Shown here: one piece after another, positions 1,029 to 24,023 of the stretch | Layout: each line of letters opens with the position of its first letter | Numbering within the stretch: position 1 is the first letter of the stretch | From: an uncultured Desulfobacteraceae bacterium | Lineage (GTDB): Bacteria; Desulfobacterota; Desulfobacteria; Desulfobacterales; Desulfobacteraceae | Reading direction: 5' to 3' | Length of the DNA: 46,211 nucleotides | Assembly: GCA_913041495.1 (NCBI GenBank) | Contig: CAJWHT010000020.1 | Location: 1-46,211, forward strand | Made by a program: the position numbers and the translations under genes | Notes under the pieces: generated by a model | Database searches by the model: none | Seen by the model: only the letters and a program-made list of their open reading frames with translations | Told to the model about the DNA's origin: nothing

Positions 1029-1048
1029 TGTCACATTATATGTGACGC
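1029..1048 (+). promoter_or_regulatory. Candidate IclR operator, site 1
   Basis: The 20-mer TGTCACATTATATGTGACGC contains the inverted repeat GTCACA-TTATA-TGTGAC. It matches the site at 1933-1952 at 15 of 20 positions, including GTCAC, ATATG and GACGC. A further GAGAC-AATT-GTCAC dyad overlaps its left end (1021-1034). Two matching dyads, one before the regulator and one before the next gene, are what a local IclR regulator would be expected to bind. Confidence 0.55.
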
Positions 1049-1068: not shown

Positions 1069-1833
1069 ATGGCAGACAAGAAATACTATCGGATTGCCTC
1101 CCTGGAAAAAGGAATACGGATTCTTGAACTTTTGGCAGAACACGGGGAGTTGAGCGTCAGTGAGGCGGCCCGGCTCATGGATACAAACCGGGCAGGCAGC
1201 CACCGGTTTATTTCCACACTCAAGGATCTGGGATACGTGGAAAAGAACAGCAGCAACAAATACCAGCCCACGCTGAAGGTCATGAGCCTTGCGACCAAGG
1301 TTGCCAACCGGTTTGAAATCCGTCGGGTTGCAAAGCCCTATATGCACAGGCTCTCCATGATGTTCAAAGAGACCATCAATCTGGGGCTGTTCAAAAACCG
1401 GGAAATCATCCACATCGATAAAATCGACAGCCTTGAAGTACTGCGCATGGACTCTGCCCTCGGGGACAAGGCACCGGCCTATTGCACGGGGCTCGGCAAG
1501 GCCATCCTGGCCTTTCTTCCCCAGCACGAACTGGCCCATTACCTGGACAATACCGAGCTTGTTCCCCTTGCCCCCAACACCATCACCGACCGGAACGAAC
1601 TTGAGGCAGAGCTTGAGCGGATACGCAAAAACGGGTATGCCGTGGATGATGAGGAATTGAACGTCGGGCTGCGCTGTATTGCCGCACCGATATTTGACCA
1701 CAACGCATACCCCGCATATGCCATCAGCATTTCAGGACCTGCCATGCGCGTTACCCACAGGACCCTGGAGGAGGCAAAAGATACCCTTTTGACCGCCTCA
1801 GCCGAGTTGTCGAAAATGATGGGCACCCCCTGA
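1069..1833 (+). CDS. IclR-family transcriptional regulator
   Basis: This 254-residue protein has the usual IclR length and architecture. An N-terminal winged helix-turn-helix spans about residues 8-65 (SLEKGIRILELLAEHGELSV, then SHRFISTLKDLGYV). A C-terminal ligand-binding domain spans about 80-250, with the conserved YCTGLGKAILAF and AVDDEELNVGLRCIAAPI segments. The start at 1069 follows an AAGGA-like site. It is transcribed in the same direction as the catabolic genes behind it, with a terminator-like hairpin in between. Known aerobic ectoine clusters usually use EnuR (MocR/GntR type) with AsnC/Lrp-type DoeX, so an IclR regulator here is a departure. The effector is unknown; by analogy it could be a pathway intermediate such as N-acetyl-diaminobutyrate. 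Confidence 0.9.
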   Translation: MADKKYYRIASLEKGIRILELLAEHGELSVSEAARLMDTNRAGSHRFISTLKDLGYVEKNSSNKYQPTLKVMSLATKVANRFEIRRVAKPYMHRLSMMFKETINLGLFKNREIIHIDKIDSLEVLRMDSALGDKAPAYCTGLGKAILAFLPQHELAHYLDNTELVPLAPNTITDRNELEAELERIRKNGYAVDDEELNVGLRCIAAPIFDHNAYPAYAISISGPAMRVTHRTLEEAKDTLLTASAELSKMMGTP

Positions 1834-1868
1834 TCGTCCATTTTCCCCCCTTTTTTTAAATTTCGCAT

Positions 1869-1901
1869 AAAAATCCTTGACAAATGTCGGGGATTTTTTT
1901 T
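1869..1901 (+). terminator. Rho-independent terminator after iclR
   Basis: AAAAATCC (1869-1876) pairs with GGATTTTT (1891-1898) around a 14-base loop and runs into a T tract. It should end the iclR transcript, so the following operon needs its own promoter. A TTGACA inside the loop (1877-1882) could be its -35, but the matching -10 (TTATCC or TATCCA near 1900-1906) is weak. Confidence 0.55.
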
Positions 1902-1932
1902 ATCCATAGTCATGTCACACATAAAACACATG

Positions 1933-1952
1933 CGTCACGCAATATGAGACGC
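1933..1952 (+). promoter_or_regulatory. Candidate IclR operator, site 2, upstream of the catabolic operon
   Basis: CGTCACGCAATATGAGACGC is an imperfect dyad (GCGTCAC against GAGACGC when the base at 1932 is included). It aligns with the site before iclR. It sits about 40 bases before the panB start, downstream of the only visible promoter candidate, fitting repression or substrate-dependent control. A further TGTCAC half-site lies at about 1913. Confidence 0.5.
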
Positions 1953-1992
1953 AAAAGAGTTATTACAAAGCTGAAAAGATGGAGAGGGGACA

Positions 1993-2841
1993 ATGGGTAA
2001 AAAGAAATTAACACGCTGGGACCTCCAGAAAATGAAGGAAAACGGCGAATCCGCCGTCTGGATCACCGCCTACGACTACTGGAACGCAAGCTTTGCCGAA
2101 GAGGCTGGCATGGACATGATTCTTGTGGGCGACTCTTTGGGAATGTGCATATACGGTTACGAGGGAACGGTTCCCGTGACAATGGACCAATGCATCTACC
2201 ATAGTGAGGCGGTCCGCAGGGGGGCGAAAAACACTTTTATCATCGGTGACATGCCCTTTTTGTCCTACCAGGTCAGCGTGGAAAAAGCCGTGTTGAACGC
2301 CGGACGCTTTCACAAGGAGGCAGGCGTGGACGCCATCAAGCTTGAAGGCGGCAAACGGGTATGCCCACAGATCCAGGCCATTTCCGACGGCGGGATGCTG
2401 GTCATGGGACATATCGGGCTGACGCCCCAGAGTTCCGGGCAGCTCGGCGGTTTCAAGGCACAGGGAAGAACGGCGGATGCGGCCTTCGAGCTGATCGAGG
2501 ATGCAAAAGCCATTGAAGCGGCAGGGGCATTTGCCCTGCTGGTGGAAGCGGTTCCACCGGAGGTATGCGATATCATCAGAAAAACGCTGTCCATACCGGT
2601 ATACAGTATCGGCGCCGGTATTGATGCCGACGGACAATTGATGATCTCTTCAGACGTAGCAGGGGTTTTTCAGGCCTTTACCCCTAAGTTTGTTAAAAAA
2701 TATGAAAACCTAGCAGACAAGACCATCCAGGCGTTTTCAGCCTACAGGGACGATGTAAAAAATGGGCGATTCCCCGCCCCTGAACACACCTACAAAATGG
2801 TGGATGGTGAACTGGACCAATTAACAGCCAAATTAAACTAA
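1993..2841 (+). CDS. panB: Ketopantoate hydroxymethyltransferase (PanB) family aldolase in a catabolic operon
   Basis: This 282-residue protein is a clear PanB homologue (usual length about 265). The metal ligands correspond to D47 (VGDSLGM), D86 (IGDMPF) and E118 (IKLEGG). The GHIGLTPQS loop, LGGFKAQGRT and the catalytic glutamate in LLVEAVPPE (about E185) are all present, so the active site looks intact. PanB transfers the methylene group of 5,10-methylene-THF to C3 of a 2-oxo acid, and the reaction is reversible. The gene is first in the catabolic operon, with a good GAGAGGGG ribosome site and 13 bases to the next gene. No other pantothenate gene is nearby, which argues for a catabolic retro-aldol role rather than vitamin synthesis. 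That substrate assignment is my inference. Confidence 0.85.
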   Translation: MGKKKLTRWDLQKMKENGESAVWITAYDYWNASFAEEAGMDMILVGDSLGMCIYGYEGTVPVTMDQCIYHSEAVRRGAKNTFIIGDMPFLSYQVSVEKAVLNAGRFHKEAGVDAIKLEGGKRVCPQIQAISDGGMLVMGHIGLTPQSSGQLGGFKAQGRTADAAFELIEDAKAIEAAGAFALLVEAVPPEVCDIIRKTLSIPVYSIGAGIDADGQLMISSDVAGVFQAFTPKFVKKYENLADKTIQAFSAYRDDVKNGRFPAPEHTYKMVDGELDQLTAKLN

Positions 2842-2854
2842 AGGACACAAAAAG

Positions 2855-3802
2855 ATGAGCGACAGACTGAACCAGATCAGAGATTTCATGGAAAAACAAG
2901 GTATTCCCGGACGGGACGGATATGAACTTGCGCCCAGCGGCAAGGCCTTTCCCGACGGAGCCAACTTCAGAATCGAGATCGCCGGCGTCGAAAGGGCCTC
3001 CACCATGGAAGCCATGATCAAGGAAGCAGACAGACGCAACGTTGTGGTTCACAGAGCCATTGCTGCTGTGGGCGGCGCCACCTTCTGCGATTTTGAAGAG
3101 CTCAAAGCCATGGCCCAGATGGCCAAAGAGGCAAAGATCGAAACCATCCTGACCGTGGGACACCGCAAGGGTTGGGACACCGGTGCCAGCGAACTGAAAA
3201 CCCGGGAAGGCGGGATGCAGGGCTTCCGTTTGAGAGGCTCGGACAATATCTCCTTTCACATCGCCGATATCATGCGGGGCATCGACGCCGGTTTCAGGGG
3301 ATTTCTCGTCTACGACGAAGGGGTCCTTTTTATCCTGAACAAGATGCGCGAAGAGGGATTGATTCCCAAAGAAACCATCTTTAAATTTTCCGTATTCGGC
3401 GGCTACTGCTCGGCAGCCGGTGCCAAGGTGATCGAGAGCATGGGCGCCAACTCCATGAACCCCATCTCCGATGTATCCCGCCCCATTTTGTCCTCCATCA
3501 GGCAGGCCATCAACATCCCCCTTGACGTGTACACCATCGTTGTCAACTCCTTTGGCGGCAGCTTCAGGGCCTATGAAGCACCGGAAATCGCCAAGGTGGC
3601 ATCCCCGTGTTACTTCAAATTCGAACCGGGCACGGCGGAAGACGAAATCTACATGCCCTGGATTGCCGAAGAGTGGCACGAGAACTTTATTAAAGAAAAG
3701 GTCAAAATCGCCTCCATCGTCATGGAAATCATGGACAAACATGCCCCCGAGATGAAGACCTCTCTTCAGGGCCCTGACGACCTGGTACTGACAACCCCAT
3801 AA
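2855..3802 (+). CDS. Conserved protein of unknown function, probable TIM-barrel
   Basis: I do not recognise this 315-residue protein with confidence. It has no signal peptide or membrane segment. Alternating short hydrophobic strands and amphipathic helices (VVVHRAIAAVGG, IETILTVGHRKG, GFRGFLVYDEGVLFIL, IPLDVYTIVVNSFGGS, CYFKFEPG) suggest a cytosolic TIM barrel. Conserved-looking polar spots are VGHRKGWDTG (about 107-116), YDEG (about 153), GYCSAAGAK (about 187-195) and FEPGTAEDE (about 254). It follows the PanB gene by 13 bases with an AAAGGA ribosome site and precedes the aminotransferase by 14, so it is almost certainly co-transcribed and works in the same pathway. A lyase or aldolase partner for PanB is possible but not shown. 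Confidence 0.55.
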   Translation: MSDRLNQIRDFMEKQGIPGRDGYELAPSGKAFPDGANFRIEIAGVERASTMEAMIKEADRRNVVVHRAIAAVGGATFCDFEELKAMAQMAKEAKIETILTVGHRKGWDTGASELKTREGGMQGFRLRGSDNISFHIADIMRGIDAGFRGFLVYDEGVLFILNKMREEGLIPKETIFKFSVFGGYCSAAGAKVIESMGANSMNPISDVSRPILSSIRQAINIPLDVYTIVVNSFGGSFRAYEAPEIAKVASPCYFKFEPGTAEDEIYMPWIAEEWHENFIKEKVKIASIVMEIMDKHAPEMKTSLQGPDDLVLTTP

Positions 3803-3816
3803 GCGAGCGTGACATC

Positions 3817-4983
3817 ATGAGTATAGAATCATTATTTTCCGAACGGAATGCCGGTGTTGAATGGTCGGGCATCCGCATCATGTTTGCCATGGCCGATAAA
3901 ATCGACGGCATCGTGAACCTGGGGATCGGCCAGCCCGACTTTGACACCCCGGTCCACATCCGGGATGCGGCAAAAGAAGGGCTGGACCAGGGATTCACCC
4001 GGTATCCGCCGGCGGCGGGGTTTCAGGACCTAAGAGAGGCGGTGGCTGAAAAGCTGGAACGGGAAAACAAGATCAAAGCCGATCCCGAATCCGAAATTTT
4101 CATATCAGTGGGCGCCATGCAGGGCATCTTCAACGTGATGCTCCACCTGGTGAACCCTGGAGATGAGGTCATGGTGGTGGACCCCGGCTATGACTATTAC
4201 TCCCAGATCCGCCTTTTCGGCGGGGTGCCGGTGCGGATTCCCGCCAGGGAAGAAAACCTGTTCAAGGTCGATCCTGCCGATATAAAACAGGCGATCACCC
4301 CAAAAACCAAAGCACTCATCCTCAACACCCCGTCAAACCCCACAGGTGCGGTGTTTGACAGGCAGATCTTAGAAGAGATCGCCGACCTGTGCAAGGAACA
4401 CAATATCATTGTGATCTCGGACGAACCCTACGAACACATCCTGTTCGACGGCAACCAGCACATCTCCATCGGGGCGCTGCCCGGGATGAAGGATCTGACC
4501 GTCTCCATTTACACCCTGTCCAAGTCCTACGCCATGACCGGCTGGCGGGTGGGGTATGTGGCCGGCCATTCCGCCATCATCAGCGAGATGGAAAAACTGA
4601 TGGAGCACATGGTCTCCGGAGTCACGGCCGTGGCCCAGCGGGCCGCCCTGGCCGCCATAGCCGGATCACAGCAATGTGTGGCAAAGATGGTGGACCGGTA
4701 TGCCAAAAGAAGAGAACTGGTATACGAAGGGTTAAACGCGATCCCGGGGATTTCCTGCATCAAACCGGAATCCACCTTTTACGCCTTTCCCAATATCTCG
4801 TCCTTGGGGATGAGTTCCTGGGATTTTGCCAAGTATATGGCCAAAGAACACAAGGTGGCGGTGGTGCCCGGATCCATCTTCGGTGAAAACGGTGAAGGAT
4901 ACGTGCGCATCTCCTTTGCCACTTCGTCTGAAAATCTTGAAACCGCGCTGGAACGTCTCGCAAGAGGCGTGGCAGCCATATAA
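3817..4983 (+). CDS. Class I/II PLP-dependent aminotransferase
   Basis: At 388 residues this matches fold-type I aminotransferases of the AspC/AlaT group. Visible motifs are NTPSNPTGAVF with the substrate-carboxylate region, DEPYEHI with the PLP-binding aspartate, and SKSYAMTGWRVGY with the PLP lysine. The arginine near the end (YVRISFA) would bind the alpha-carboxylate of the substrate. In the cluster the expected amino donor is L-2,4-diaminobutyrate. Gamma transamination would give aspartate semialdehyde as DoeD does, whereas alpha transamination would give 4-amino-2-oxobutanoate. DoeD is a class III enzyme, so this would be a non-orthologous replacement. Regiospecificity cannot be read from the sequence. 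Confidence 0.85.
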   Translation: MSIESLFSERNAGVEWSGIRIMFAMADKIDGIVNLGIGQPDFDTPVHIRDAAKEGLDQGFTRYPPAAGFQDLREAVAEKLERENKIKADPESEIFISVGAMQGIFNVMLHLVNPGDEVMVVDPGYDYYSQIRLFGGVPVRIPAREENLFKVDPADIKQAITPKTKALILNTPSNPTGAVFDRQILEEIADLCKEHNIIVISDEPYEHILFDGNQHISIGALPGMKDLTVSIYTLSKSYAMTGWRVGYVAGHSAIISEMEKLMEHMVSGVTAVAQRAALAAIAGSQQCVAKMVDRYAKRRELVYEGLNAIPGISCIKPESTFYAFPNISSLGMSSWDFAKYMAKEHKVAVVPGSIFGENGEGYVRISFATSSENLETALERLARGVAAI

Positions 4984-4994
4984 ACGGTTAAACC

Positions 4995-5025
4995 GCCCCC
5001 CGGCCCGGTTATTCGGGCCGGGGGC
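4995..5025 (+). other. Strong intergenic stem-loop inside the operon
   Basis: A near-perfect GC-rich stem (CCCCCGGCCCG against CGGGCCGGGGG, loop GTTATT) fills most of the gap between the aminotransferase and the M24 hydrolase. No T tract follows; a ribosome site (CGGAGGA) and start codon do. It is more likely to affect mRNA processing or stability than to terminate. Confidence 0.5.
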
Positions 5026-5037
5026 GCTTGCGGAGGA

Positions 5038-6216
5038 ATGATGGCCTTATTTTCCAGAACAGAGTTTCTAACGCGGATTGCCAATACCAAATCGGCCATG
5101 GCCCACAAGGGCATTGACATCCTTATGGTCTGCGACCCTGCCAATATGAACTACCTGACCGGTTATGACGGCTGGTCCTTTTACGTGCCCCAGGCGGTCC
5201 TGGTGATAGATGACCGGGAAGAGCCCATATGGATCGGCAGAAAAATGGATGCCAACGGAGCCCGTCATACAGCCTTTATAAAGGAAGATAATATCATTGG
5301 CTATCCAGAGGATTATATCCAGACCGATGTCAAACACCCGATGAACTTTATGGGTGACTTTATTAAGGAAAAGGGATGGGCCGGCAAATCTATCGGCGTT
5401 GAAACCGATGCCTATTACTACACGGCCCGAAGTGATGCCGAACTTAAAAAGAGCCTGGGACGGGATACCCTTCTCAACGGCAACCTCCTGGTCAACTGGG
5501 TAAGGATCGTCAAGTCCGATGCAGAGATCGCCATGATGAAACAGGCAGGCCTCATCGCCGAAAATGTCATGGCCACTGCCATAGATAAAATATCGGCAGG
5601 CACCCGGGAATGCGATGCCGTGGCCGCGGTTTACCAGGCCCAGGTTTCGGGTACCCAGGAATTTGGCGGAGATTACCCGTCAATCGTTCCCATGATGCCC
5701 ACAGGGGAAAAGACAAGCGCCCCACATCTCACTTGGACAGACGAACCCTATGTCAGCGGCCAGGCCGTAAACCTGGAGTTAGCGGGCTGCCGGAACCGCT
5801 ACCACTGCCCCATTGCCAGAACCGCTTTCATCGGCGGGACACCTCCGGAAAAGCTTCAGAATCTGGCGGATATCACCGTAGAGGGGCTCAACCTGACCCT
5901 CGATGCCATAAAGCCCGGCATGACAGGGGAAGATGTGGAACGGGTATGGCGGGAACATATTGCAAAGAAGGGGTTTGAGAAGGAATCGCGCATCGGGTAC
6001 TCCATGGGACTGAACTATCCCCCGGACTGGGGTGAGCACACGGCCAGCCTGCGGCCCGGAGACAAGACCGAACTTGTACCCAATATGACCTTTCACATGA
6101 TCCTGGGAATGTGGATGGACGATTTCGGGTTTGAATGCTCGGAATCCTTCAGGGTGACGCAGACAGGAGCGAAAACCTTTGCCAGTTTTGACAGGAAGCT
6201 GTTTGTCATTGATTGA
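5038..6216 (+). CDS. Ectoine hydrolase-like M24 (creatinase/prolidase fold) protein, paralogue 1
   Basis: This 392-residue protein has the creatinase N-terminal domain (about 1-150, with DPANMNYLTGYDGWSFYV) and the pita-bread catalytic domain (about 160-390, with GLNYPPDWGEHT). It matches EutD/DoeA ectoine hydrolases in length and motifs and is closely similar to the second copy at 11887. Where metal-dependent M24 peptidases carry an aspartate pair, this protein reads NLELAGCRNRYHCPIARTAF, so the metal site appears to be missing, as in creatinase. EutD opens the ectoine ring to N-acetyl-diaminobutyrate. Start: ATG at 5038 and 5041 are in tandem; 5041 has better spacing from GGAGG. The two copies may split ectoine and hydroxyectoine, or act on alpha and gamma acetyl isomers. 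Confidence 0.8.
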   Translation: MMALFSRTEFLTRIANTKSAMAHKGIDILMVCDPANMNYLTGYDGWSFYVPQAVLVIDDREEPIWIGRKMDANGARHTAFIKEDNIIGYPEDYIQTDVKHPMNFMGDFIKEKGWAGKSIGVETDAYYYTARSDAELKKSLGRDTLLNGNLLVNWVRIVKSDAEIAMMKQAGLIAENVMATAIDKISAGTRECDAVAAVYQAQVSGTQEFGGDYPSIVPMMPTGEKTSAPHLTWTDEPYVSGQAVNLELAGCRNRYHCPIARTAFIGGTPPEKLQNLADITVEGLNLTLDAIKPGMTGEDVERVWREHIAKKGFEKESRIGYSMGLNYPPDWGEHTASLRPGDKTELVPNMTFHMILGMWMDDFGFECSESFRVTQTGAKTFASFDRKLFVID

Positions 6217-6247
6217 AAAATAAACAAGGGGATTAAAAAAGGCCGTT

Positions 6248-7420
6248 ATGGACCCTATTCAACAGCGTATCCACGAGTTAAAAAACGAGGTGATCGACCT
6301 GCGCCGGGATTTTCACATGCATCCGGAACTCGGGTTTGCCGAGTTTGAAACCGCCAAAAAGATAGAGCGCTATCTTAAGGATATCGGTTTTACCACCACC
6401 CGGATGGCCGGGACCGGTGTTGTGGCGGTTCTTGACAGTGGCAGACCGGGCCCCTGCCTGATGCTCCGTGCCGATATGGATGCCCTGCCTGTCACCGAAG
6501 CCAATGATATCCCCTATAAATCAAAGAATGACGGCGTGATGCATGCCTGCGGCCACGATGCCCATATGGCCATGCTGCTGGTGGCGGCAAAAGTCCTTTC
6601 GGAAAACCGGGATCTGCTCAAGGGACGTATCAAATTCGTTTTCCAGCCGGACGAGGAAATTGCCGGCGCCATAAAGATGGTGGAAAACCATGTACTGGAA
6701 GGGGTGGACGGCGTGATGGGGCTTCATATCTGGAGCCTGACCCCATCCGGACGGGTCTCCATCTCCCCGGGTGTGGTCATGGGAGGCCTGGATGTATTCA
6801 AGGTGAGGGTCATCGGCAAAGGAGGCCATACCGGCTATCCCCACGAAGCCGTTGATCCGGTGATTGCCGCAGCCAGCATCATCCAGTCGGTCCAGGCCAT
6901 TCAAACCAGGGAAATGGATGCCCAGAAGCCCGTAATTATCATGTTCGGAAAACTTTCGGCCGGGAAAAAATCCAACATCATTCCCGAAGAGGTCTATCTG
7001 GAAGGGACCATCCGGTTTCTCCACGATGCAGATCCGGGAGACCCACAAAGTCCCACCAACCGGTTCATCCGCATCTGTGAATCGGTGTGCCAGGCACATC
7101 TTTGCACCTGCAAAATCGATATCGAACATGAGAACATCCCCCTGGTCAATGATCCCAGGATGACGGATTTTGCAAAGACGATTGCCACAGATGTATTCGG
7201 CAGCCCGGATGTCATTGACGCCGGCCGGTATATCGCAAGTGAGGATTTCAGTGAATACACCTCCCGCATTCCGGGGGTGTTCATATTCCTGGGCTGTGCC
7301 AACACGGATAAGCAAAGCGATATCCCCCTGCACAACCCTAAATTCAACATTGATGAAGACGTATTAACAAAAGGAGTAGAGCTGCATGTCAAAGGCGCTG
7401 TAAATTATACAAATAAGTAG
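6248..7420 (+). CDS. M20-family amidohydrolase, candidate N-acetyl-diaminobutyrate deacetylase
   Basis: This 390-residue protein is an M20D amidohydrolase of the hippurate hydrolase/N-acyl amino acid deacylase type. The N-terminus carries DLRRDFHMHPELGF. Metal-binding motifs are HACGHDAHMAM, with the cysteine ligand typical of this group, and PDEEIAGA. GLHIW and GKGGHTGYPHEAVDP mark the lid/dimerisation domain, and a final histidine lies near the C-terminus (PLHNPKFNIDED). No signal peptide is seen, so it is cytosolic. Standard ectoine pathways use DoeB/EutE, an aspartoacylase-type deacetylase absent here; this enzyme would fill that step. Substrate is inferred from neighbours only. Confidence 0.8.
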   Translation: MDPIQQRIHELKNEVIDLRRDFHMHPELGFAEFETAKKIERYLKDIGFTTTRMAGTGVVAVLDSGRPGPCLMLRADMDALPVTEANDIPYKSKNDGVMHACGHDAHMAMLLVAAKVLSENRDLLKGRIKFVFQPDEEIAGAIKMVENHVLEGVDGVMGLHIWSLTPSGRVSISPGVVMGGLDVFKVRVIGKGGHTGYPHEAVDPVIAAASIIQSVQAIQTREMDAQKPVIIMFGKLSAGKKSNIIPEEVYLEGTIRFLHDADPGDPQSPTNRFIRICESVCQAHLCTCKIDIEHENIPLVNDPRMTDFAKTIATDVFGSPDVIDAGRYIASEDFSEYTSRIPGVFIFLGCANTDKQSDIPLHNPKFNIDEDVLTKGVELHVKGAVNYTNK

Positions 7421-7471
7421 CGCCCCACCCATAAACCATAAAACAGTAACCCAAACAAAAGGAGCTGGATA

Positions 7472-8500
7472 ATGAAAACAAGTCTGTATTTAAAAACGGT
7501 TAAACTATTGGTTGCAAGTTTTCTGCTAATGATCGCCACAAACCTGCACGCCGAAGAATGGAAGTACGCCATGGGAGAGGGAGAGACTGATCCCCAGGGC
7601 ATCTACGCAACCGCATTTAAAGATTTTATTGAAGAAAACTCAAGGCATACGATCAAGATCTACCCTGTGGGCAGCCTTGGAGAAGAGACAGACATGATGG
7701 AGCAGACCAAAGCCGGTATCCTTCAATTCTTGGGACAGTCCACAGGTTACATGGGCGGCACCATTCCCGAGATGGATCTTTTCACCCTGCCCTACGTAAT
7801 GCCCACAGATACCAAGCAGCTGGACTATTTTTTCAAAAACTCAAAAGCCATCAACGAGATGCTCCCCCCGATTTTCAACGACCACGGGCTTGAGCTGCTC
7901 TCGATCTTTCCCGAAGGCGAGATGGCGGTGACCACTTTTGAGCCCTTTCACTCTCCCGCCGATCTTGCGGGTAAAAAAATGCGTGTCATGCCCGGATCCC
8001 CCATCCTGGTTGAAACCTATAAATCCTTTGGTGCCTCTCCCGTACCCATGACCTGGGGTGACCTGATCGGTGCTCTGAAAACCAACATGGTGGACGGCCA
8101 GGAAAATCCCACGGTTTGGATCGAAGCCTATGACCTGGACCATCTGACAAAAGTATTGACCTATACCGGCCACGGTCATTTCAACGCCTCTGCCTCTGCG
8201 AACAAAGCCTTTTTTGACGCGCTGAGCGAACGGGATAAAAAACTGGTCCGTGCGGCTGCCGACCATGCCCACCAGGTCATCCTTGAAGAAGCTGAAAAAC
8301 TGGATGCCTATGGGATCGGCCGCATCGTCAGGACCAACCCGGATTATAAAATCGTCACCCTGACTGAAAAAGAACGCGCCCCCTTTAAAAAAGCGGCAAC
8401 GGCTGTACAGGCATCCTTTGCCTCAAAGAGCGATTCCAACAAAAAACTGCTGGATCAGATGATGGCAGACCTGAAAGAGGCTGAAGCAAAGACCAAATAA
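7472..8500 (+). CDS. uehA: TRAP transporter substrate-binding protein, TeaA/UehA-like
   Basis: This is a 342-residue periplasmic DctP-family protein with a signal peptide (about residues 1-27, cut after NLHA). The mature part resembles TeaA/UehA ectoine-binding proteins along its length: EEWKYAMGEG with DPQGIYA, MEQTKAGILQF, PEGEMAVTT, and MVDGQENPTVW near the substrate-clamping region. The ribosome site is strong (AAAGGAGCTGGATA). It precedes the two membrane subunits, with a stem-loop in the gap. TeaA and UehA bind ectoine and hydroxyectoine through aromatic residues; several tryptophans and phenylalanines are present, but I cannot confirm each ligand contact. Confidence 0.85.
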   Translation: MKTSLYLKTVKLLVASFLLMIATNLHAEEWKYAMGEGETDPQGIYATAFKDFIEENSRHTIKIYPVGSLGEETDMMEQTKAGILQFLGQSTGYMGGTIPEMDLFTLPYVMPTDTKQLDYFFKNSKAINEMLPPIFNDHGLELLSIFPEGEMAVTTFEPFHSPADLAGKKMRVMPGSPILVETYKSFGASPVPMTWGDLIGALKTNMVDGQENPTVWIEAYDLDHLTKVLTYTGHGHFNASASANKAFFDALSERDKKLVRAAADHAHQVILEEAEKLDAYGIGRIVRTNPDYKIVTLTEKERAPFKKAATAVQASFASKSDSNKKLLDQMMADLKEAEAKTK

Positions 8501-8515
8501 ATCCGTAACCGAACA

Positions 8516-8554
8516 GAACGGCAAGACAGATCTGACGGGTCTGTTTTGCCGTTC
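8516..8554 (+). other. Stem-loop between binding-protein and permease genes
   Basis: GAACGGCAA (8516-8524) pairs with TTGCCGTTC (8546-8554), and an inner ACAGA/TCTGT pair extends the stem. Such structures after binding-protein genes often stabilise the upstream message, giving more binding protein than permease. Confidence 0.55.
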
Positions 8555-8564
8555 AGGAGAACCA

Positions 8565-9152
8565 ATGGATGCCATAGAAAAACGCACTCCCCCGGAGGTC
8601 AGGTCCAATCCTTTGCTGAAAACCATTGATTTCATTGACACCCAGATCAGCAGGCTTGAAGGGGTCATGCTGGCCTTCGGGGTGATCGCCATGACCGTCA
8701 ATACCATTGCCGCAGTAATCAGCCGGTTTATCTTTAACGATGCCATTACCTTCACCGATGAACTCAACGTGATATTCATTGTCCTGGTGACCTATGCGGG
8801 CTTAAGCTATGCCGCACGAAACGGTCGTCATATAAGGATGTCCGCCATTTATGACGCCATGCCCGAACAGGTGCGCAGAATTTTAATGGTGGTAATGACC
8901 TCCGTGACCTCGGCCTTTATGTTCTTTTTATCCTTTTATTCTATTACCTACATCGCAGAGGTATACGAGAGCGGCCGGATTCTGCCGGCCCTGGGCCTGC
9001 CGGTATTCTATATTTACCTGTGGGTGCCTGTGGGCTTTGTCATGACGGGGCTGCAGTACGGGTTTACGGCTGTAAAGAACTTAACACAATCTGATGTCTA
9101 TCTGTCCACCAGTGTTAAAGACGGATATACCGACACCCAAATCGATATGTAA
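8565..9152 (+). CDS. uehB: TRAP transporter small membrane subunit (DctQ family)
   Basis: This 195-residue protein has four hydrophobic segments (about residues 37-60, 71-90, 108-130 and 150-172), the normal DctQ layout, and the typical TDELNVIFIVLVTYAGLSYA with RHIRM motif after the second segment. A CAGGAGA ribosome site precedes the start. It would sit in the inner membrane with the large subunit encoded six bases downstream. Confidence 0.88.
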   Translation: MDAIEKRTPPEVRSNPLLKTIDFIDTQISRLEGVMLAFGVIAMTVNTIAAVISRFIFNDAITFTDELNVIFIVLVTYAGLSYAARNGRHIRMSAIYDAMPEQVRRILMVVMTSVTSAFMFFLSFYSITYIAEVYESGRILPALGLPVFYIYLWVPVGFVMTGLQYGFTAVKNLTQSDVYLSTSVKDGYTDTQIDM

Positions 9153-9158
9153 GGCACA

Positions 9159-10853
9159 ATGAAACCATTAAAAACATTTTTCCTGTTATGTATTCTCAGC
9201 TGTCTTTGGACCATTCACTGGGCCGCCACTTTATTTGCTGCAGATGATGTCAGGCTGGTGATCGAAGAGACGGTCATTGAGCAAAAAACGCAGCTTTCCG
9301 TATACGGCTATGCAGAAGGGGTGGAGCCATGGCAGACTGTCCGCATCACCCTGGGTGATGAAAAGGGAAACACCATTGAAAAGGCCCCTAAAATCAATAA
9401 AATCGGTAATTGGGAAGTTGAGGCCGTGGATATCAGCGCCCTGGCCGACGGTAACATCACCATTGCGGCAACGGTCAATGATGACCGGGGAACCATCGTG
9501 GCGCAAACCTCTGCCCAGACAGTTCTGGACAGAAGTTTCAGTCTTATGGACTTTTTGAACAAACATTTTGCCCTGTCCATCTTTTTGTTGATGATCCTGT
9601 TGCTGCTGCTCGGCTTTCCCATGAAAATTCCCCTGATTGCCGGCGCCACCCTGGGGATTTACCTGCTGTACGAGGGGGACTTTTCCAAGACCCAGTTCAT
9701 GATCCAGCAGATGATGGCCGGGATCCGGCCGGCAGCGCTTATCGCCGTTCCCATGTTTATCCTTTCCGCCGACATCATGACCCGGGGCAAGTCATCTGAA
9801 AAGCTGATCGACCTGGTCATGGCCTTTGTCCGGCATATCAAAGGAGGCCTTGCCGTCAGCACCGCAGGCGCCTGCACCATATTCGGGGCGGTTTCAGGCT
9901 CCACCCAGGCAACGGTTGTGGCAATCGGTTCCCCCCTGCGTCCCGAGCTTCTCAAGGGGGGATACAAGGACTCGTTTATCCTGGCCCTTATCGTCAACTC
10001 CAGCGACATTGCCTTTTTGATTCCCCCAAGTATCGGCATGATCATCTACGGCATCGTGGCCAAAACCTCCATACCGGAACTCTTTATTGCTGGCATCGGA
10101 CCGGGTCTGCTGATCCTTTTTTTGTTTTCCATCTACAGCGTGATCTATGCCTATGCCAACAACATTCCCACCGAACCCAAGGCCTCGTGGAAGGAACGGG
10201 GAACGGCACTATACCATGCCCTGTGGCCCCTGGGATTCCCCGTTATCATTATCGGCGGGATCTTCGGCGGAATTTTCAGCCCGACGGAGGCCGCGGCGGT
10301 CAGCGTAGGATACGCCATCCTCCTTGAAGGGTTTATCTTCAAGACCATGAAGCTTTCCGACTTTTATGCCACAGCCTTGTCCACCGGACTTGTAACCGCA
10401 GTTGTCTTTATCCTGGTGGGTGCCGGAGCCGCCTTTGCCTGGGTGCTCTCCTATGCCCAGGTTCCCCAGCAAATCCTGGGGCTGATCGGCATAGAGGAAA
10501 TGGGCCAGTACGGGGTTCTTTTTGTGATTTCTTTTGCCTTTTTCACCGGCTGCATGTTTGTGGATCCCATAGTGGTCATCCTGATCCTGGTCCCGATCTT
10601 TGCCCCTGTGGTAAATAATGTGGGGCTTGATCCGGTGCTGGTAGGTACGATTATCACCCTTCAGGTGGCCATCGGTTCTGCAACACCGCCTTTTGGCTGC
10701 GACATTTTTACGGCCATCGCCATATTTAAACGGCCCTACTTTGAAGTGATCAAGGGAACGCCGCCTTTTATTTTCATTCTTTTAAGCGTGGCCGTGGCCA
10801 TGATTTTCTTTCCGGAGATCGCGCTGTATCTAAGGGATGTGGCGTTCAGGTAA
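9159..10853 (+). CDS. uehC: TRAP transporter large subunit (DctM) with an N-terminal extracytoplasmic Ig-like domain
   Basis: The C-terminal 430 residues are an ordinary DctM permease, with GAVSGSTQATVVAIGSPLRP, SSDIAFLIPPSIGMIIYG and SATPPFGCDIF. The protein is 564 residues, about 135 longer than usual. The extra part begins with a signal peptide or signal anchor (about 1-27, ending TLFA). A beta-rich segment (about 28-127) follows: LVIEETVIEQKTQLSVYGYA, WQTVRITLGDEKG, ITIAATVNDDRGTIV. It looks like a bacterial Ig-like or Big-type domain and would lie in the periplasm. The fusion is not a frameshift artefact, because the frame is continuous. Its role, perhaps docking the binding protein, is unknown. 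Confidence 0.88.
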   Translation: MKPLKTFFLLCILSCLWTIHWAATLFAADDVRLVIEETVIEQKTQLSVYGYAEGVEPWQTVRITLGDEKGNTIEKAPKINKIGNWEVEAVDISALADGNITIAATVNDDRGTIVAQTSAQTVLDRSFSLMDFLNKHFALSIFLLMILLLLLGFPMKIPLIAGATLGIYLLYEGDFSKTQFMIQQMMAGIRPAALIAVPMFILSADIMTRGKSSEKLIDLVMAFVRHIKGGLAVSTAGACTIFGAVSGSTQATVVAIGSPLRPELLKGGYKDSFILALIVNSSDIAFLIPPSIGMIIYGIVAKTSIPELFIAGIGPGLLILFLFSIYSVIYAYANNIPTEPKASWKERGTALYHALWPLGFPVIIIGGIFGGIFSPTEAAAVSVGYAILLEGFIFKTMKLSDFYATALSTGLVTAVVFILVGAGAAFAWVLSYAQVPQQILGLIGIEEMGQYGVLFVISFAFFTGCMFVDPIVVILILVPIFAPVVNNVGLDPVLVGTIITLQVAIGSATPPFGCDIFTAIAIFKRPYFEVIKGTPPFIFILLSVAVAMIFFPEIALYLRDVAFR

Positions 10854-10888
10854 AATAAAAAAGTACATAAATTTCGAGATTATACACC

Positions 10889-11866
10889 ATGACGGATATC
10901 ACACTGAAAGAGGTGTTCAAGGCCAGAAAAAGGATTGCGCCCATTGTCCGTACAACGCCCTTGATACAGGCACCGCAGCTTTCTGAACAGCAGGGCCGGC
11001 CGGTTCATCTGAAGCTGGAAAATCTTCAGGAGACCGGCTCCTTCAAGCTGAGGGGGGCGGCCAATGCCCTGCTGGGCTTAAGTGACGATGAAAAGGCAAG
11101 GGGGGTGCTGGCCTTTTCCACCGGGAACCACGGCCGGGCCGTGGCCTGGGTGGCACGGGAACTGAACATTTCCTGCACCATCTGCCTGTCCGAACGGGTA
11201 CCGGCCTACCGGGTGGCTGCCATGGAAGCCTTCGGGGCCCGGGTGGTCCAAAAAGGGGCCAGCCAGGATGACGCCTATAATGTGGCCCTGGCACTTGAAA
11301 GGGACAAGGGCCTGACCATGGTAAAGCCATTTGATGATCCCAATGTCATTGCAGGCCAGGGCACCATCGGCCTGGAAATCCTTGAAGCTGTGCCTGAGGT
11401 GGATACCCTGGTGGTGCCAGTCTCCGGCGGCGGCCTTGCGGCCGGGGTTGCCCGGGTTCTCAAGGCCGCGGACCCTGCGATCCAGGTCATCGGGGTTTCC
11501 ATGGAGGTGGCCCCGGCCATGTATCACTCCCTGAAATCCGGGAAACCTGTGGAGGTAACGGAAAAGGACAGTATAGCCGATGCCCTTTTAGGCGGGATCG
11601 GCCTGGACAATGCCTATACCTATCCCATGGTGGAAAGATACCTGGACCGCATCGACCTGGTGTCAGAAGCACAGATTGAAAAGGGGATGATCTTTGCCCA
11701 CGACCACTTAGGCATCCTCATTGAGGGGGCGGCAGCCGTCACCCTGGCCTGGCTGCTCACCCACCGGTGCCCGGGCAAATCCGTTGTGGGCATTCTTTCC
11801 GGCGGTAACGTGGATACAGGCCTGCTGTTTGATATCCTGGCCCGCCATAACAAACCCAATCCATAA
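10889..11866 (+). CDS. eutB: Hydroxyectoine utilisation dehydratase EutB
   Basis: At 325 residues this is a fold-type II PLP enzyme of the threonine dehydratase/serine racemase group. It has the PLP lysine in GSFKLRGAANAL (K53), FSTGNHGRAVAW for the substrate and the glycine loop SGGGLAAG (about 179-186). There is no C-terminal ACT regulatory domain, unlike biosynthetic IlvA. Together with EutC and EutD close downstream it matches EutB, which with EutA and EutC converts 5-hydroxyectoine to ectoine. The ribosome site is weak. The gap from dctM is 35 bases, so one operon with the transporter is likely. Confidence 0.85.
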   Translation: MTDITLKEVFKARKRIAPIVRTTPLIQAPQLSEQQGRPVHLKLENLQETGSFKLRGAANALLGLSDDEKARGVLAFSTGNHGRAVAWVARELNISCTICLSERVPAYRVAAMEAFGARVVQKGASQDDAYNVALALERDKGLTMVKPFDDPNVIAGQGTIGLEILEAVPEVDTLVVPVSGGGLAAGVARVLKAADPAIQVIGVSMEVAPAMYHSLKSGKPVEVTEKDSIADALLGGIGLDNAYTYPMVERYLDRIDLVSEAQIEKGMIFAHDHLGILIEGAAAVTLAWLLTHRCPGKSVVGILSGGNVDTGLLFDILARHNKPNP

Positions 11867-11886
11867 AGAATAAGGATTCAAAAGGC

Positions 11887-13053
11887 ATGCTTTTCACCCC
11901 GGAAGAATACCGGCAGCGCATGGAAAAAACCCGGTCTGCCATGGCGGAAAAGGGGCTGGATCTTTTGATCATCACCGATCCTGCCAATATGAACTATCTG
12001 ACCGGGTATGACGGATGGTCATTTTATGTCCACCAGGGAGTGATCATATTCCAGGACCGGGACCAGCCCCTCTGGTTCGGCCGCCAACAGGACAGCAACG
12101 GTGCCAGGATCACCACCTGGCTGGACGACGATCACATCCTGGGATATGAAGACCATTATGTCCAGTCCCGGACCGTGCACCCCTATGATGTGGTCGCAGA
12201 CCTGATCCGGTCAAAAGGATACCAGCGCAGCCATATCGGTGTGGAAAAGGACAACTATTACTTTACGGCCCGGTGTCTTGAACATCTGGCCGCAGGCCTT
12301 CCGGAGGCACGTATCCTGGACGGGGAGCTGATCGTCAACTGGGTCCGGTGCATCAAGTCCCAAGCCGAACTTACCTATATGAAAATGGCGGGAAAAATTC
12401 TGGAATCGGTGATGGACACAGCGGTACGCCTCATTGAACCGGGGGTAAGAGAGGGGGATGTGGCCGCCCAGGTCTACCGTGCCATGATCAGCGGCACAGC
12501 CGAATTCACAGGGGATTACTCCGCCATCATCCCCATCATGCCGTCGGGTAGGCGAACCACCACGGCCCACCTTTCCTGGACCGACCGCAGGTATAAAAAG
12601 GATGAAATCGTCCTGCTGGAGCTTTCCGGCTGCAAACACCGCTACCATGCCCCGCTTTCCAGAACCGTGATCACAGGCAAACCGGACCCTGTACTCGAAG
12701 AGATATCCAAAACCGTCATCCACGGCCTGAATACGGTGGTGGATGCCATCCGGCCGGGGATTCAAGCCCGGGACATCGAGGCCCTGTGGCGCAAATCCAT
12801 ATCCGGCTCCCGGGTGGTTAAAGAATCACGTATCGGCTATGCCTTCGGACTGAACTATCCCCCGGACTGGGGAGAGCATACCATCAGTCTCAGACCGGGG
12901 GACACCACGGTGCTTGAACCCGGAATGACCATCCATGTCATGCCCGGCATCTGGACCGACACCCTGGGGTTTGAATGCAGCGAGGCCATCTATGTGACCG
13001 ACACCGGGTGCCAGACCTTTGCCCGGGTGCCCAGGCAATTGTTCATCAAATAG
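11887..13053 (+). CDS. eutD: Ectoine hydrolase EutD/DoeA, paralogue 2
   Basis: This 388-residue M24 protein has the same architecture as the copy at 5038 and shares long identical stretches with it, such as DPANMNYLTGYDGWSFYV and GLNYPPDWGEHT. The metal-site region reads LLELSGCKHRYHAPLSRT, so the aspartate pair of metallo-M24 enzymes is absent here too. EutD/DoeA opens the ectoine pyrimidine ring to N-acetyl-L-2,4-diaminobutyrate. Its position between EutB and EutC-type genes is that of eutD in known hydroxyectoine clusters, so I give this copy the name. It starts 21 bases after eutB with an AAAGG ribosome site. Confidence 0.85.
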   Translation: MLFTPEEYRQRMEKTRSAMAEKGLDLLIITDPANMNYLTGYDGWSFYVHQGVIIFQDRDQPLWFGRQQDSNGARITTWLDDDHILGYEDHYVQSRTVHPYDVVADLIRSKGYQRSHIGVEKDNYYFTARCLEHLAAGLPEARILDGELIVNWVRCIKSQAELTYMKMAGKILESVMDTAVRLIEPGVREGDVAAQVYRAMISGTAEFTGDYSAIIPIMPSGRRTTTAHLSWTDRRYKKDEIVLLELSGCKHRYHAPLSRTVITGKPDPVLEEISKTVIHGLNTVVDAIRPGIQARDIEALWRKSISGSRVVKESRIGYAFGLNYPPDWGEHTISLRPGDTTVLEPGMTIHVMPGIWTDTLGFECSEAIYVTDTGCQTFARVPRQLFIK

Positions 13054-13060
13054 AGGGCAG

Positions 13061-13795
13061 ATGAAATACATCCGCAAAAACAGACAGGTCTCATACGGTG
13101 AAGCGATCGGCATCCTTTTGCTGGACTCCCCTGTTCCCTTTATCCCGGGGGATGTTGCCAATGCCACATCCTATGGGTTTCCGGTGAGGTTTAAACGGGT
13201 CAAAGGCTTTTCCGTTGAAAAGGCATTGGGACGGGATCCTGACATCTATCCCGCCCTTTTGGAAGCGGCAAAGGCACTTCAGGCCAACGGTGTCAGGGCC
13301 GTGACCGGAGACTGCGGGTTCATGGCGCTTCACCAGAAAAAACTGACACACGATCTTGATATTCCCGTCTGCCTGTCCAGTCTTTTCCAGCTCCCGTTTA
13401 TCCGGCAGATGATGCCTGCGGCCACTGCCGCTATCGGCATTATCACTGCCGACAGCCGCAGCCTGACCCCGGATTTCCTGGAGCGCATAGGAATCCCCTA
13501 TGGCCCGGACCTGTTGTTTGCAGGCCTTGAAACCTGCCCGGAATTCTTCTCCGCCGTGATCCAGGAAAAGGGCAGCCTGGACGATGATTTAATCCGGCAG
13601 GAGGTGGGCCGGGCAGCACTTGCCCTTGCAAGGCCGGAAAACCGGCTCGGCGCCATCCTGCTGGAATGCAGCGTATTGCCGCCCTATGCCGCCCATGTCA
13701 ATAAACTGACGAATCTTCCCGTATTCGATTACATCACCATGATCAACTACATGTTTTCCGCCGTGGTCCCCCGGACCTATGACGGTTTTATGTAA
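13061..13795 (+). CDS. Asp/Glu racemase-superfamily protein, probable EutA counterpart
   Basis: Translated from ATG at 13061, after AGAGGG and eight bases past the eutD stop, the protein has 244 residues. An earlier in-frame ATG at 13019 would overlap eutD and is unlikely. It has the Asp/Glu/hydantoin racemase layout with two catalytic cysteines: one in TGDCGFMALH (about residue 88) and one in LLECSVLPPYA (about residue 205). EutA of known clusters belongs to the same superfamily and is thought to invert a stereocentre of hydroxyectoine before EutB acts. This protein is not a close textbook EutA, so I leave the symbol blank, but its place in the operon makes that role likely. Confidence 0.7.
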   Translation: MKYIRKNRQVSYGEAIGILLLDSPVPFIPGDVANATSYGFPVRFKRVKGFSVEKALGRDPDIYPALLEAAKALQANGVRAVTGDCGFMALHQKKLTHDLDIPVCLSSLFQLPFIRQMMPAATAAIGIITADSRSLTPDFLERIGIPYGPDLLFAGLETCPEFFSAVIQEKGSLDDDLIRQEVGRAALALARPENRLGAILLECSVLPPYAAHVNKLTNLPVFDYITMINYMFSAVVPRTYDGFM

Positions 13796-13804
13796 GGAGG
13801 CTTC

Positions 13805-14797
13805 ATGAGCGTTTTAATTCTGACGGAAAAAGAACTTAAAAACATTGTCAAAATCGATATCCCTGCCATTGATGCCATTGAACAGGCCTTTGCCTGGTTG
13901 TCACAGGGCAAGGTGTCCATGCCCCCCATCATGCATATTGAAGTCCCCGAGTACGAGGGTGATGTGGATATCAAAAGCGCATACGTAAAAGGGCTGGAGC
14001 GGTTTGCCGTCAAAATCGGGGCCGGCTTTTTCAACAATGCGGCGTTGGGCCTGCCCTCCTCTCCTGCCATGATGGTGGTCATCAGTGCAAAAACCGGGAT
14101 GGCCGAAGCCGTCCTTCTGGACAACGCCTATCTTACCGATGTGAGAACGGCAGCCGCAGGGGCTGTGGCAGCCAGGCACCTTGCCCCTGAAACCGTTTCC
14201 TGCGCGGGAGTGGTGGGTGCGGGTGCCCAAGGCCGGTACCAGCTTATGGCGTTAGCCCAGGTCAGACCCTTTGACCGCGCACTGGTGTATGACCGGGATG
14301 ATGACCTGGCGGCCCGGTATGCCCTTACAATGACCGAAAAATTAGGCCGGCCGGTGGAAGTGGCGGCAGATGTCAACGATCTTGTGGCCCGGAGCCAGAG
14401 TGTTGTCACCTGCACCCCGTCAAAAATCCCCTATGTGGATCCAGACGCCCTGCATCCGGGGCTGCACATCACAGCCATGGGCGCAGACCTGCCGGAAAAG
14501 CAGGAACTGATGCCAAAGGTATTTGAACGGTCAGATATCATCGCCTGTGATGTCAGATCCCAGAGTTTTTCCGCAGGGGAGCTTTACAATGCCATCAAGG
14601 CCGGGGTGGATATTACGGCCTCTCAGGTGGCTGAGCTTGGGGAAATCATCACCGGAAAGGCTCAGGGCAGACAAGATCAGGAGCAGATCACGGTGTGCGA
14701 TCTGTCCGGCACCGGTGTTCAGGATACAGCCATTGCCGCCTTTGCCCTGTCCAGGGCCGCAGGCAAAGATATGGGAACTGCCATCCGGACAGATTAA
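13805..14797 (+). CDS. eutC: Ectoine utilisation protein EutC (ornithine cyclodeaminase family)
   Basis: This 330-residue protein is of the ornithine cyclodeaminase/mu-crystallin family. It has MPPIMHIEVPE with DVDIKSAYV at the substrate side, DNAYLTDVRTAAAGAVAARHLAP, and the NAD-binding loop GVVGAGAQGRYQ (about 136-147). These features and the neighbours fit EutC, which completes the EutA-EutB-EutC conversion of hydroxyectoine to ectoine. The ribosome site is excellent (AAGGAGG, overlapping the end of the preceding gene). It is the last gene of the island; no terminator hairpin is obvious behind it. Confidence 0.85.
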   Translation: MSVLILTEKELKNIVKIDIPAIDAIEQAFAWLSQGKVSMPPIMHIEVPEYEGDVDIKSAYVKGLERFAVKIGAGFFNNAALGLPSSPAMMVVISAKTGMAEAVLLDNAYLTDVRTAAAGAVAARHLAPETVSCAGVVGAGAQGRYQLMALAQVRPFDRALVYDRDDDLAARYALTMTEKLGRPVEVAADVNDLVARSQSVVTCTPSKIPYVDPDALHPGLHITAMGADLPEKQELMPKVFERSDIIACDVRSQSFSAGELYNAIKAGVDITASQVAELGEIITGKAQGRQDQEQITVCDLSGTGVQDTAIAAFALSRAAGKDMGTAIRTD

Positions 14798-21217: not shown

Positions 21218-21227
21218 GGAGAGATAA

Positions 21228-22328: not shown

Positions 22329-22333
22329 CATCC

Positions 22334-24003: not shown

Positions 24004-24023
24004 CTTAGAAGGAGGAAAGTGAA

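Follow-up and report, generated by a model that had tools for sequence, protein, structure and literature searches.

A candidate anaerobic ectoine route with a PanB paralogue and an unclassified barrel protein in an uncultured Desulfobacteraceae bacterium

We analyzed a 46,211-nucleotide stretch of DNA (the window) from an uncultured Desulfobacteraceae bacterium (GenBank assembly GCA_913041495.1, contig CAJWHT010000020.1) and propose a function for a run of 13 genes within it. In the full model, to which we give about an even chance, an IclR-controlled operon would support anaerobic use of ectoine and hydroxyectoine, with 2,4-diaminobutyrate (DABA) losing its alpha-amino group and the resulting 2-oxo acid being cleaved to pyruvate and methylene-tetrahydrofolate (methylene-THF). 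The cleavage is assigned to two proteins, a paralogue of ketopantoate hydroxymethyltransferase that we call PanB2 and an unclassified TIM-barrel protein that we call X. More general, and somewhat short of even in our judgment, is the view that this oxygen-independent route runs a folate-linked PanB-family enzyme backward together with X, and that PanB2 and X make up a broader module, present in anaerobes (by record, Desulfobacterota, Dehalococcoidia, Synergistota, Spirochaetes, and Firmicutes), that also serves other 2-hydroxy or 2-oxo acid substrates. Our evidence consists of gene content, relationships, and co-occurrence, from which we infer each of the reactions discussed below.

The 13 co-directional genes occupy the plus strand from 1069 to 14797 (Table 1), and their open reading frames (ORFs) lie where an initial annotation, made from the letters alone, had placed them. 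Their order is IclR, PanB-like, X, class I aminotransferase, M24a, M20, the P, Q, and M components of a tripartite ATP-independent periplasmic (TRAP) transporter, EutB-like, M24b, racemase-like, and EutC-like, with intergenic gaps of 6-64 nucleotides (nt), the one exception being the 159 nt that follow the IclR gene. That annotation had suggested looking for the same gene set in relatives, and a homologous run does recur in many genomes, so the arrangement is not due to chance. In the species collection, 215 stretches were confirmed to encode relatives of X; the locus counts given here come from the best 80 of these (78 loci), many of which end early, so that absences are soft. An M24 hit is present in 45 of the 78 loci, including one spurious 19% hit (L145) and one assembled from pieces (L132), and these 45 hold M20 in 35 cases, the racemase in 30, PanB in 27, EutB in 22, and EutC in 2.

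The host is very likely a sulfate-reducing member of the Desulfobacterota, as its genome encodes dsrA (597 bits, cut-off 393) and CdhC, part of carbon monoxide dehydrogenase/acetyl-CoA synthase (238 bits, cut-off 24), and the highest-ranked named record sharing the cluster is Desulfospira joergensenii. These findings support the probable strict anaerobe presumed at the outset. Base composition gives no sign of a horizontally acquired island (GC content 0.538 in the island, 0.552 in the left flank, 0.508 in the right flank). Among the matches listed, 14 other genomes of the same genus lack a strong X match, one of them having a 38% match, and the distribution of the cluster is therefore patchy.

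Ectoine and hydroxyectoine use, the central claim of the initial annotation, is supported by a TeaA/UehA-like binding protein together with M24 proteins that are sisters of EutD, and we consider it highly likely that the operon serves this purpose. The solved chains closest to the binding protein (3gyy, 3fxb, and 2vpn), which we take to be TeaA and UehA, score 305-297 bits, and the next chain scores 127. M24a matches DoeA (6twk) at 357 bits, with the next other protein at 75. A tree was built against a reference set of canonical EutD plus three further M24 proteins; short hits and those below 45% identity were left out of it, and the only loci added for M24b were five larger ones. In this tree both M24 proteins fall within a 59-row clade (support 95/91) that is sister to canonical EutD (6 rows, 100/99). 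Residues specific to EutD, defined as invariant in five canonical EutD proteins and absent from three outgroups, are kept at 44 of 83 positions in M24a and 42 of 83 in M24b. Phylogeny, proposed earlier as a check, therefore gives an intermediate outcome for M24, and the EutB-like protein scores best against EutB models. The Eut names hold as best-matching families; most scores lie under the NCBIfam equivalog cut-offs, so these are divergent homologues, although the EutC-like protein passes PRK08291. Ring opening would very probably be handled by a divergent branch of the EutD family.

Some observations count against ectoine as the substrate. The M24 proteins reach 479 and 469 bits, under the TIGR02993 (EutD/DoeA) cut-off of 613, although this is still their best family, and the join of their clade to canonical EutD is supported by only 91/62, with long branches flagged. 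Of ten TeaA positions compared, which we presume to contact the ligand, four are changed (F66, T145, E169, and M213) and six kept (E9, W167, N184, W188, F209, and A234); the comparison is weak either way. A related compound, either a cyclic amidine or an N-acylated diamino acid, would suit M24 proteins that are sister to canonical EutD, form no subclade of it, and fall under the curated cut-off, and also a second TRAP type in relatives whose match to TeaA/UehA is weaker (169 bits against 143 for the next chain). We regard such a substrate as very improbable in view of the wide separation, given above, between TeaA/UehA and the next solved chain for the window's own binding protein, and of the joint occurrence of kin of EutB, EutC, and EutD.

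With ectoines as the substrate, the TRAP transporter would import them, M24a would open the ring of ectoine and M24b that of hydroxyectoine to give N-alpha-acetyl-DABA or its hydroxy form, and the M20 protein would strip acetate from these to leave DABA or hydroxy-DABA. The reported lack of DoeB stands: the EutE/DoeB model TIGR02994 has no match over its cut-off in the host genome (3 matches, best 49 bits) or in any of 16 other genomes. The M20 protein exceeds the cut-off of the amidohydrolase subfamily TIGR01891 (372 vs 154 bits), scores under cut-off with CpsA (395 bits) and DoeB2 (289 bits, cut-off 550), and has IAA-amino acid hydrolase, YxeP, and N-acyl-glutamine aminoacylase among its PDB kin. 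It thus shares family and proposed pathway place with NCBIfam DoeB2, an M20-type acetyl-DABA deacetylase, and differs in its low score and in the higher-scoring CpsA model. Given the match to DoeB2, it probably fills the missing DoeB function. The rewired downstream enzyme set described initially is supported in this respect, the M20 swap being of a known type, and uptake, ring opening, and deacetylation are likely to proceed as proposed.

The next step would depart from the known pathway, in which a gamma-transaminase and a semialdehyde dehydrogenase act; the enzymes here are expected to deaminate DABA at the alpha carbon. The class I aminotransferase has aromatic and aspartate aminotransferases as its closest solved structures. 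Across the 45 M24-bearing loci, 20 have only the aminotransferase, 21 only a homologue of glutamate dehydrogenase (GDH), none both, and four neither (L131, L132, L144, and L146), with one GDH-only locus being L145 and its spurious M24 hit. In L112, the one locus whose GDH homologue was scanned against NCBIfam, the best match is glutamate dehydrogenase (391 bits, under the cut-off of 750). Because two unrelated enzymes substitute for each other, they point to one shared reaction. GDH-type enzymes work on alpha-amino acids, and since both enzymes are alpha-acting as far as is known, the product would be a 2-oxo acid. Loss of the alpha-amino group of DABA has good circumstantial support, then, with 4-amino-2-oxobutanoate as the expected product of the aminotransferase, or of the dehydrogenase in relatives.

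An ordinary ending is the rival at this point: the gamma-amino group would be lost to the operon's class I aminotransferase or to an enzyme of class III encoded elsewhere, a dehydrogenase from outside the operon would oxidize the resulting semialdehyde to aspartate, and PanB2 and X would meet another need of the same growth condition. The known pathway does finish at aspartate, according to the parts of two papers available to us (PMC13188858; PMC8739950). The host genome has no match over the cut-off for diaminobutyrate 4-transaminase (DoeD; TIGR00709), in agreement with the initial annotation; it has 20 weaker ones, some of them pieces, so the absence of DoeD is unproven. Many other aminotransferase matches in the genome likewise leave room for a gamma route. 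We nevertheless find this ending quite improbable, because GDH-type replacements of the aminotransferase are alpha-specific as far as is known, no DoeD-type enzyme exceeds the cut-off, and PanB2 and X are located inside the run.

Alpha-deamination would leave a 2-oxo acid to be processed, and PanB2 is the first candidate. It belongs to the family given for it initially and passes the curated TIGR00222 cut-off; what had gone unseen is its membership in a specialized paralogue clade and a wider PanB2/X module, along with the case for alpha-deamination by an aminotransferase or GDH. The host genome encodes three PanB proteins, one in the canonical clade (C18), the window copy, and a second of the window type (C202). 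In a tree of 88 PanB proteins, the window type and its kin, C202 included, form 59 rows apart from the 29 others, C18 included, with support of 100/99 and a stem of 0.88, and the window protein stands outside the canonical clade. The residues D45, S46, D84, K112, E114, H136, and E181 are kept in all 59, and positions 65, 200, 201, and 214 are changed to Cys in 58, Tyr in 51, Ser in 52, and Ile in 58. Numbering follows E. coli PanB, and we take the first set to be catalytic and the second to line the pocket. Judged by sequence, PanB2 is a specialized paralogue clade that retains the family and catalytic residues of canonical PanB and differs from it in its separate clade, its changed pocket, and its presence as an extra copy beside the canonical one.

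PanB2 and X also travel together. We surveyed 291 genomes of the class, 32 of which have X. Three of these are weak matches (31-38%) and were counted with the genomes lacking it; the remaining 29 comprise 27 matches of at least 226 residues and at least 58% identity, a fragment of 59 residues (G180), and one copy that is broken (G288). Of the 29 X genomes, 26 have type-2 PanB, meaning at least 62% identity among the matches listed (which extend down to 50%), against 38 of the 262 others (Fisher p 1.6e-16, ignoring kinship and for the most part reflecting the same cluster); the X and PanB tables were joined by hand. In G288, the matches to X and PanB (L057) contain in-frame TGA stops, and the locus resembles a decayed copy of the cluster.

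X was described initially as an unrecognized TIM-barrel-like protein, and so it remains. It has no Pfam or NCBIfam hit at E<=0.001, nothing above cut-off when Pfam is searched at E<=1, and no PDB sequence hit below E 0.1, and its predicted structure is an alpha/beta barrel with a predicted local distance difference test score (pLDDT) of 91.7. The closest folds found by Foldseek are class II aldolases (best E 3.6e-8); at a template modeling (TM) score of about 0.5 and about 10% identity, assignment to that class was rejected and the fold taken as a TIM barrel only. Two distant kin of X narrowly pass the peptidase U32 model (PF01136, cut-off 22.4) at 23.0 and 25.3, and two others fall below it. 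A U32 protease or Fe-S hydroxylase is not supported for X itself, which has no family hit and no conserved cysteine: across 57 X sequences, none of the columns that are invariant or almost so is a cysteine. Conserved Fe-S cysteines are a feature of the U32 hydroxylase members. Two lysines in barrel strands, K177 and K255, are invariant across the 57 sequences, and our guess from the model is that their placement would fit Schiff-base formation with a 2-oxo acid.

We suggest, as a plausible step, that X and PanB2 cleave the C3-C4 bond of 4-amino-2-oxobutanoate. X might replace the beta-amino group by water to give 4-hydroxy-2-oxobutanoate, on which PanB2 would then perform a retro-aldol reaction, or PanB2 might carry out a direct retro-Mannich cleavage. 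Either way the products would be pyruvate, ammonia, and 5,10-methylene-THF, which would feed the acetyl-CoA pathway of the sulfate reducer, with no need for aspartate semialdehyde; the CdhC gene of the host genome is in keeping with this one-carbon link. Neighboring genes support a 2-oxo acid as the substrate of X and PanB2, as these encode enzymes that all make 2-oxo acids: among the loci without M24 hits, X and PanB adjoin a 2-hydroxyacid dehydrogenase-like protein, named from its sequence, in L122 and L160, and X lies beside a GDH homologue (L114) or beside an aminotransferase and PanB (L150). In L153, X, a GDH homologue, PanB2, and an EutB homologue neighbor each other.

Several findings tell against this assignment or narrow it. 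PanB adjoins X in 27 of the 45 M24-bearing loci, and three of the 29 X genomes (G232, G159, and G288) have no listed type-2 PanB; in G232, where a single PanB match of unlisted identity was scored as without type 2, and in G159, the contig starts at or inside X, and in G288 the cluster is broken. Conversely, type-2 PanB is present in 38 genomes that lack X, so PanB2 is not specific to ectoine, and 33 of the 78 X loci have no M24 hit, some of them only because they are short, so ectoine does not determine what X acts on. The proposed route leaves the racemase without a role.

The separation of X from PanB in such loci as L108, L110, L116, L119, L159, L161, L163, L164, L166, and L170, and a fold nearest to class II aldolase barrels, would also suit a version in which alpha-deamination is followed by cleavage or conversion of the 2-oxo acid by X on its own and PanB2 does something else, such as making a branched product or scavenging formaldehyde. 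We think this unlikely, as type-2 PanB co-occurs with X in nearly all X genomes and, in the three genomes of this kind that were examined (those of L108, L116, and L166), is encoded elsewhere in the genome.

The proposed joint action of PanB2 and X may extend well beyond this cluster. Record titles place X in Desulfobacterota, Dehalococcoidia, Synergistota such as Acetomicrobium, Spirochaetes, Firmicutes, and one Opitutae metagenome-assembled genome, names that indicate anaerobes. One Dehalococcoidia record (L122, 2321-9610) has MttB methyltransferase-like, corrinoid protein-like, 2-hydroxyacid dehydrogenase-like, and LarA-like proteins upstream of X and two PanB pieces, possibly hinting at another substrate for the module. 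In Desulfosarcina widdelii, the neighbors of one type-2 PanB are a Rid-family protein and a methyl-THF:corrinoid methyltransferase that scores 285 bits against a cut-off of 259 and is truncated where the locus ends; they tie PanB2 to one-carbon and imine chemistry. More distant relatives of X, at 30-34% identity, lie near an aminotransferase, an oxidoreductase, and a phosphotransferase on an Enterobacter chuandaensis plasmid (L202) and among sugar-nucleotide-type and ComB-like genes, as read from sequence, in L058; the gene contexts of L202 and L058/L061 extend the X superfamily beyond anaerobes and beyond the ectoine route.

Type-2 PanB also has another partner, a 426-amino-acid protein, Y, which it adjoins in the host genome's C202 locus (L090) and in L086, L087, L088, L183, L189, and L196. 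Y has no Pfam hit and no PDB match at E<=0.001; its model, built with 7 sequences (pLDDT 77), shows eight strands as in a barrel and was not used as evidence. An Lrp/AsnC-like regulator, again read from sequence, adjoins the pair in L090. By gene arrangement, PanB2 and Y are a second PanB2-partner pair.

For hydroxyectoine, the proposed route is shorter. EutB would turn hydroxy-DABA into 4-amino-2-oxobutanoate, much as threonine dehydratase yields a 2-oxo acid, making EutC unnecessary; where present, EutC could alternatively reduce the imine to DABA. The EutB-like protein falls just under its cut-off of 413 bits. A second M24 protein tracks EutB, which is found in 14 of the 15 loci with at least two M24 hits and 8 of the 30 with one (p 2e-5). 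The EutC-like protein scores 376 bits with TIGR02992 (cut-off 472) and 422 with the PRK08291 "cyclodeaminase" model (cut-off 408). EutC of the cluster type (351-382 bits) occurs in 6 of 17 genomes surveyed, with just a fragment in G198. In five EutB-bearing genomes, the best EutC match is 148 bits (G291), 126 (G294), none (G297), 20 (G298), and 175 (G299), with EutB over its cut-off in G298, G297, and G291 (L111, L134, and L166) and under it in G294 and G299 (L140 and L121). L111 belongs to Desulfoferrobacter suflitae.

A finding from Ruegeria pomeroyi speaks against this shortcut: on hydroxyectoine it contains DABA in substantial amounts, as reported in the part of PMC8739950 available to us, so EutB may normally act with EutC and the flow may pass through DABA. 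The same portion of that paper terms the EutB and EutC steps uncertain, and the occurrence of EutB without cluster-type EutC makes them testable here. The racemase-like protein was initially called EutA-like. This did not hold, as its match is PRK07475 with a trace of PRK10481, and no EutA model, which we take to be TIGR02990, was hit at E<=0.001 or 0.01; Pfam Asp_Glu_race gives just 21 bits, under cut-off, and the gene is also present in clusters without EutB. In a cluster shared by L048 (G263) and L108 (G292), EutC and M24b precede the run on the opposite strand, an agmatinase-like protein (331 amino acids, by reading) lies downstream adjoining EutB, and no PanB adjoins X.

The anaerobic cluster itself is already in print, and the proposed chemistry is the new part. 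In the part of PMC13188858 (2026) available to us, Desulfospira joergensenii and other Thermodesulfobacteriota are shown with putative ectoine clusters that have two eutD and no eutE/ssd, and complete conventional clusters are shown in Maridesulfovibrio bastinii and Oceanidesulfovibrio marinus, two sulfate-reducer-type species; Desulfovibrio bastinii is named earlier in the corresponding part of PMC5924519. The D. joergensenii cluster (L093) is a syntenic run 63-90% identical to ours over the 12 genes seen in the locus, with an EutC match following in the same genome (G274). Its extra genes are left as unknown in that portion of PMC13188858, where no route is proposed, and a word search of the main text returns no panB, pantoate, hydroxymethyltransferase, glutamate dehydrogenase, or "anaerob." In the open-licence papers searched, we found no earlier proposal of an ectoine route through alpha-deamination, PanB2, and X, and no paper working out ectoine breakdown without oxygen.

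Comparison with described systems helps to locate the departures. The window shares with the Doe/Eut pathway of Halomonas elongata and Ruegeria pomeroyi an EutD-type hydrolase, deacetylation to DABA, TeaA/UehA-type uptake, and EutB/EutC homologues, and differs in having M20 for EutE, IclR for EnuR/AsnC in the cluster, and PanB2 and X in addition. The synthetic homoserine cycle, as given in the accessible part of PMC8879981, likewise treats 4-hydroxy-2-oxobutanoate as pyruvate plus a one-carbon compound; it is an engineered assimilation by the aldolase RhmA, whereas we propose a natural THF-linked degradation. Bacillota EutB/EutD clusters, such as that of Priestia megaterium plasmid pBMV_1 (PMC13188858, same portion), have kin of EutB, EutC, M24, and M20. 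That plasmid (L203) has a row of EutB, PdxS, M24 (56% to M24b), a cyclodeaminase, a cystathionine-gamma-synthase family protein, M20, homoserine dehydrogenase, and aldehyde dehydrogenase; the window has an aminotransferase (GDH in relatives), X, and PanB2 in place of the cystathionine-gamma-synthase-like protein and the two dehydrogenases. The L203 row is perhaps a third route, from DABA through homoserine and aspartate semialdehyde to aspartate.

The IclR-family regulator was correctly recognized from the start, and an inverted repeat directly before its gene, TGTCACAT-N3-ATGTGACG, is a suggestive candidate for its operator. It has one match in the window at up to 3 mismatches, against a shuffle mean of 0.11. 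At the same tolerance, 13 of 33 loci, counting the window, have similar repeats either ahead of the IclR gene or between that gene and PanB, against a frequency of 0.06% in 5244 control windows. Because the pattern was derived from the same loci, these counts are partly circular and suggestive only.

Ectoines are common nitrogen-rich marine solutes. If the proposed route is true, sulfate reducers and fermenters would direct ectoine to one-carbon and acetyl-CoA metabolism and not to the tricarboxylic acid cycle, a relative of PanB would act as a degradative enzyme releasing one-carbon units, and X found with M24 would be a marker gene for anaerobic ectoine use in metagenomes.

Table 1. Features of the proposed ectoine operon, with positions in the window
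Feature	Position	Strand	Evidence
Inverted repeat TGTCACATTATATGTGACG, candidate IclR operator	1029..1047	.	Pattern match directly before IclR
IclR-family regulator	1069..1833	+	PF01614 and PF09339
PanB2, ketopantoate hydroxymethyltransferase paralogue, proposed cleaving direction	1993..2841	+	PF02548 341 bits; separate clade
X, unclassified TIM-barrel protein, proposed lyase/hydratase on a 2-oxo acid	2855..3802	+	Model pLDDT 91.7
Class I aminotransferase, proposed alpha-deamination of DABA	3817..4983	+	PF00155; GDH homologues replace it elsewhere
M24a, EutD/DoeA-like ectoine hydrolase (predicted)	5038..6216	+	Best PDB match DoeA 6twk 357 bits; tree
M20 amidohydrolase, proposed N-alpha-acetyl-DABA deacetylase (DoeB2-like)	6248..7420	+	TIGR01891, DoeB2, CpsA models
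TRAP binding protein DctP, TeaA/UehA-like	7472..8500	+	3gyy/3fxb/2vpn 305-297 bits
TRAP small membrane subunit	8565..9152	+	Position and ORF; co-travels with DctP in relatives
TRAP large membrane subunit	9159..10853	+	Position and ORF; relatives
EutB-like pyridoxal phosphate (PLP) dehydratase, proposed hydroxy-DABA dehydratase	10889..11866	+	PRK07476 401 bits, best family
M24b, second EutD-like hydrolase, proposed for hydroxyectoine	11887..13053	+	TIGR02993 469 bits; second M24 tracks EutB
Asp/Glu-racemase-superfamily protein PRK07475	13061..13795	+	270 bits over cut-off 231
EutC-like ornithine-cyclodeaminase-family reductase	13805..14797	+	PRK08291 422 bits; genome survey

Elsewhere in the window, positions 16846-26115 hold two minus-strand flavin adenine dinucleotide (FAD) proteins, one with a BFD-like Fe-S domain, adjoined by an ABC importer-like set of two ATPases, two permeases, and a solute-binding protein (family scans covered the latter and one ATPase), which we take to be perhaps a glycerol or glycerol-phosphate system. 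The stretch from 37500 to 44900 is low in GC (0.41-0.43 vs about 0.54) and carries, at 42616-43494, a G2P-type rolling-circle replication protein, followed by a weak integrase hit (43508-44791) and by a tRNA-His (44812-44887), so that by its gene content it looks like an integrated filamentous-phage-like element. Positions 45234-46211 carry the beginning of a GTPase of elongation-factor type; its sequence reads like SelB, and Pfam gives only EF-Tu-type domains for it.

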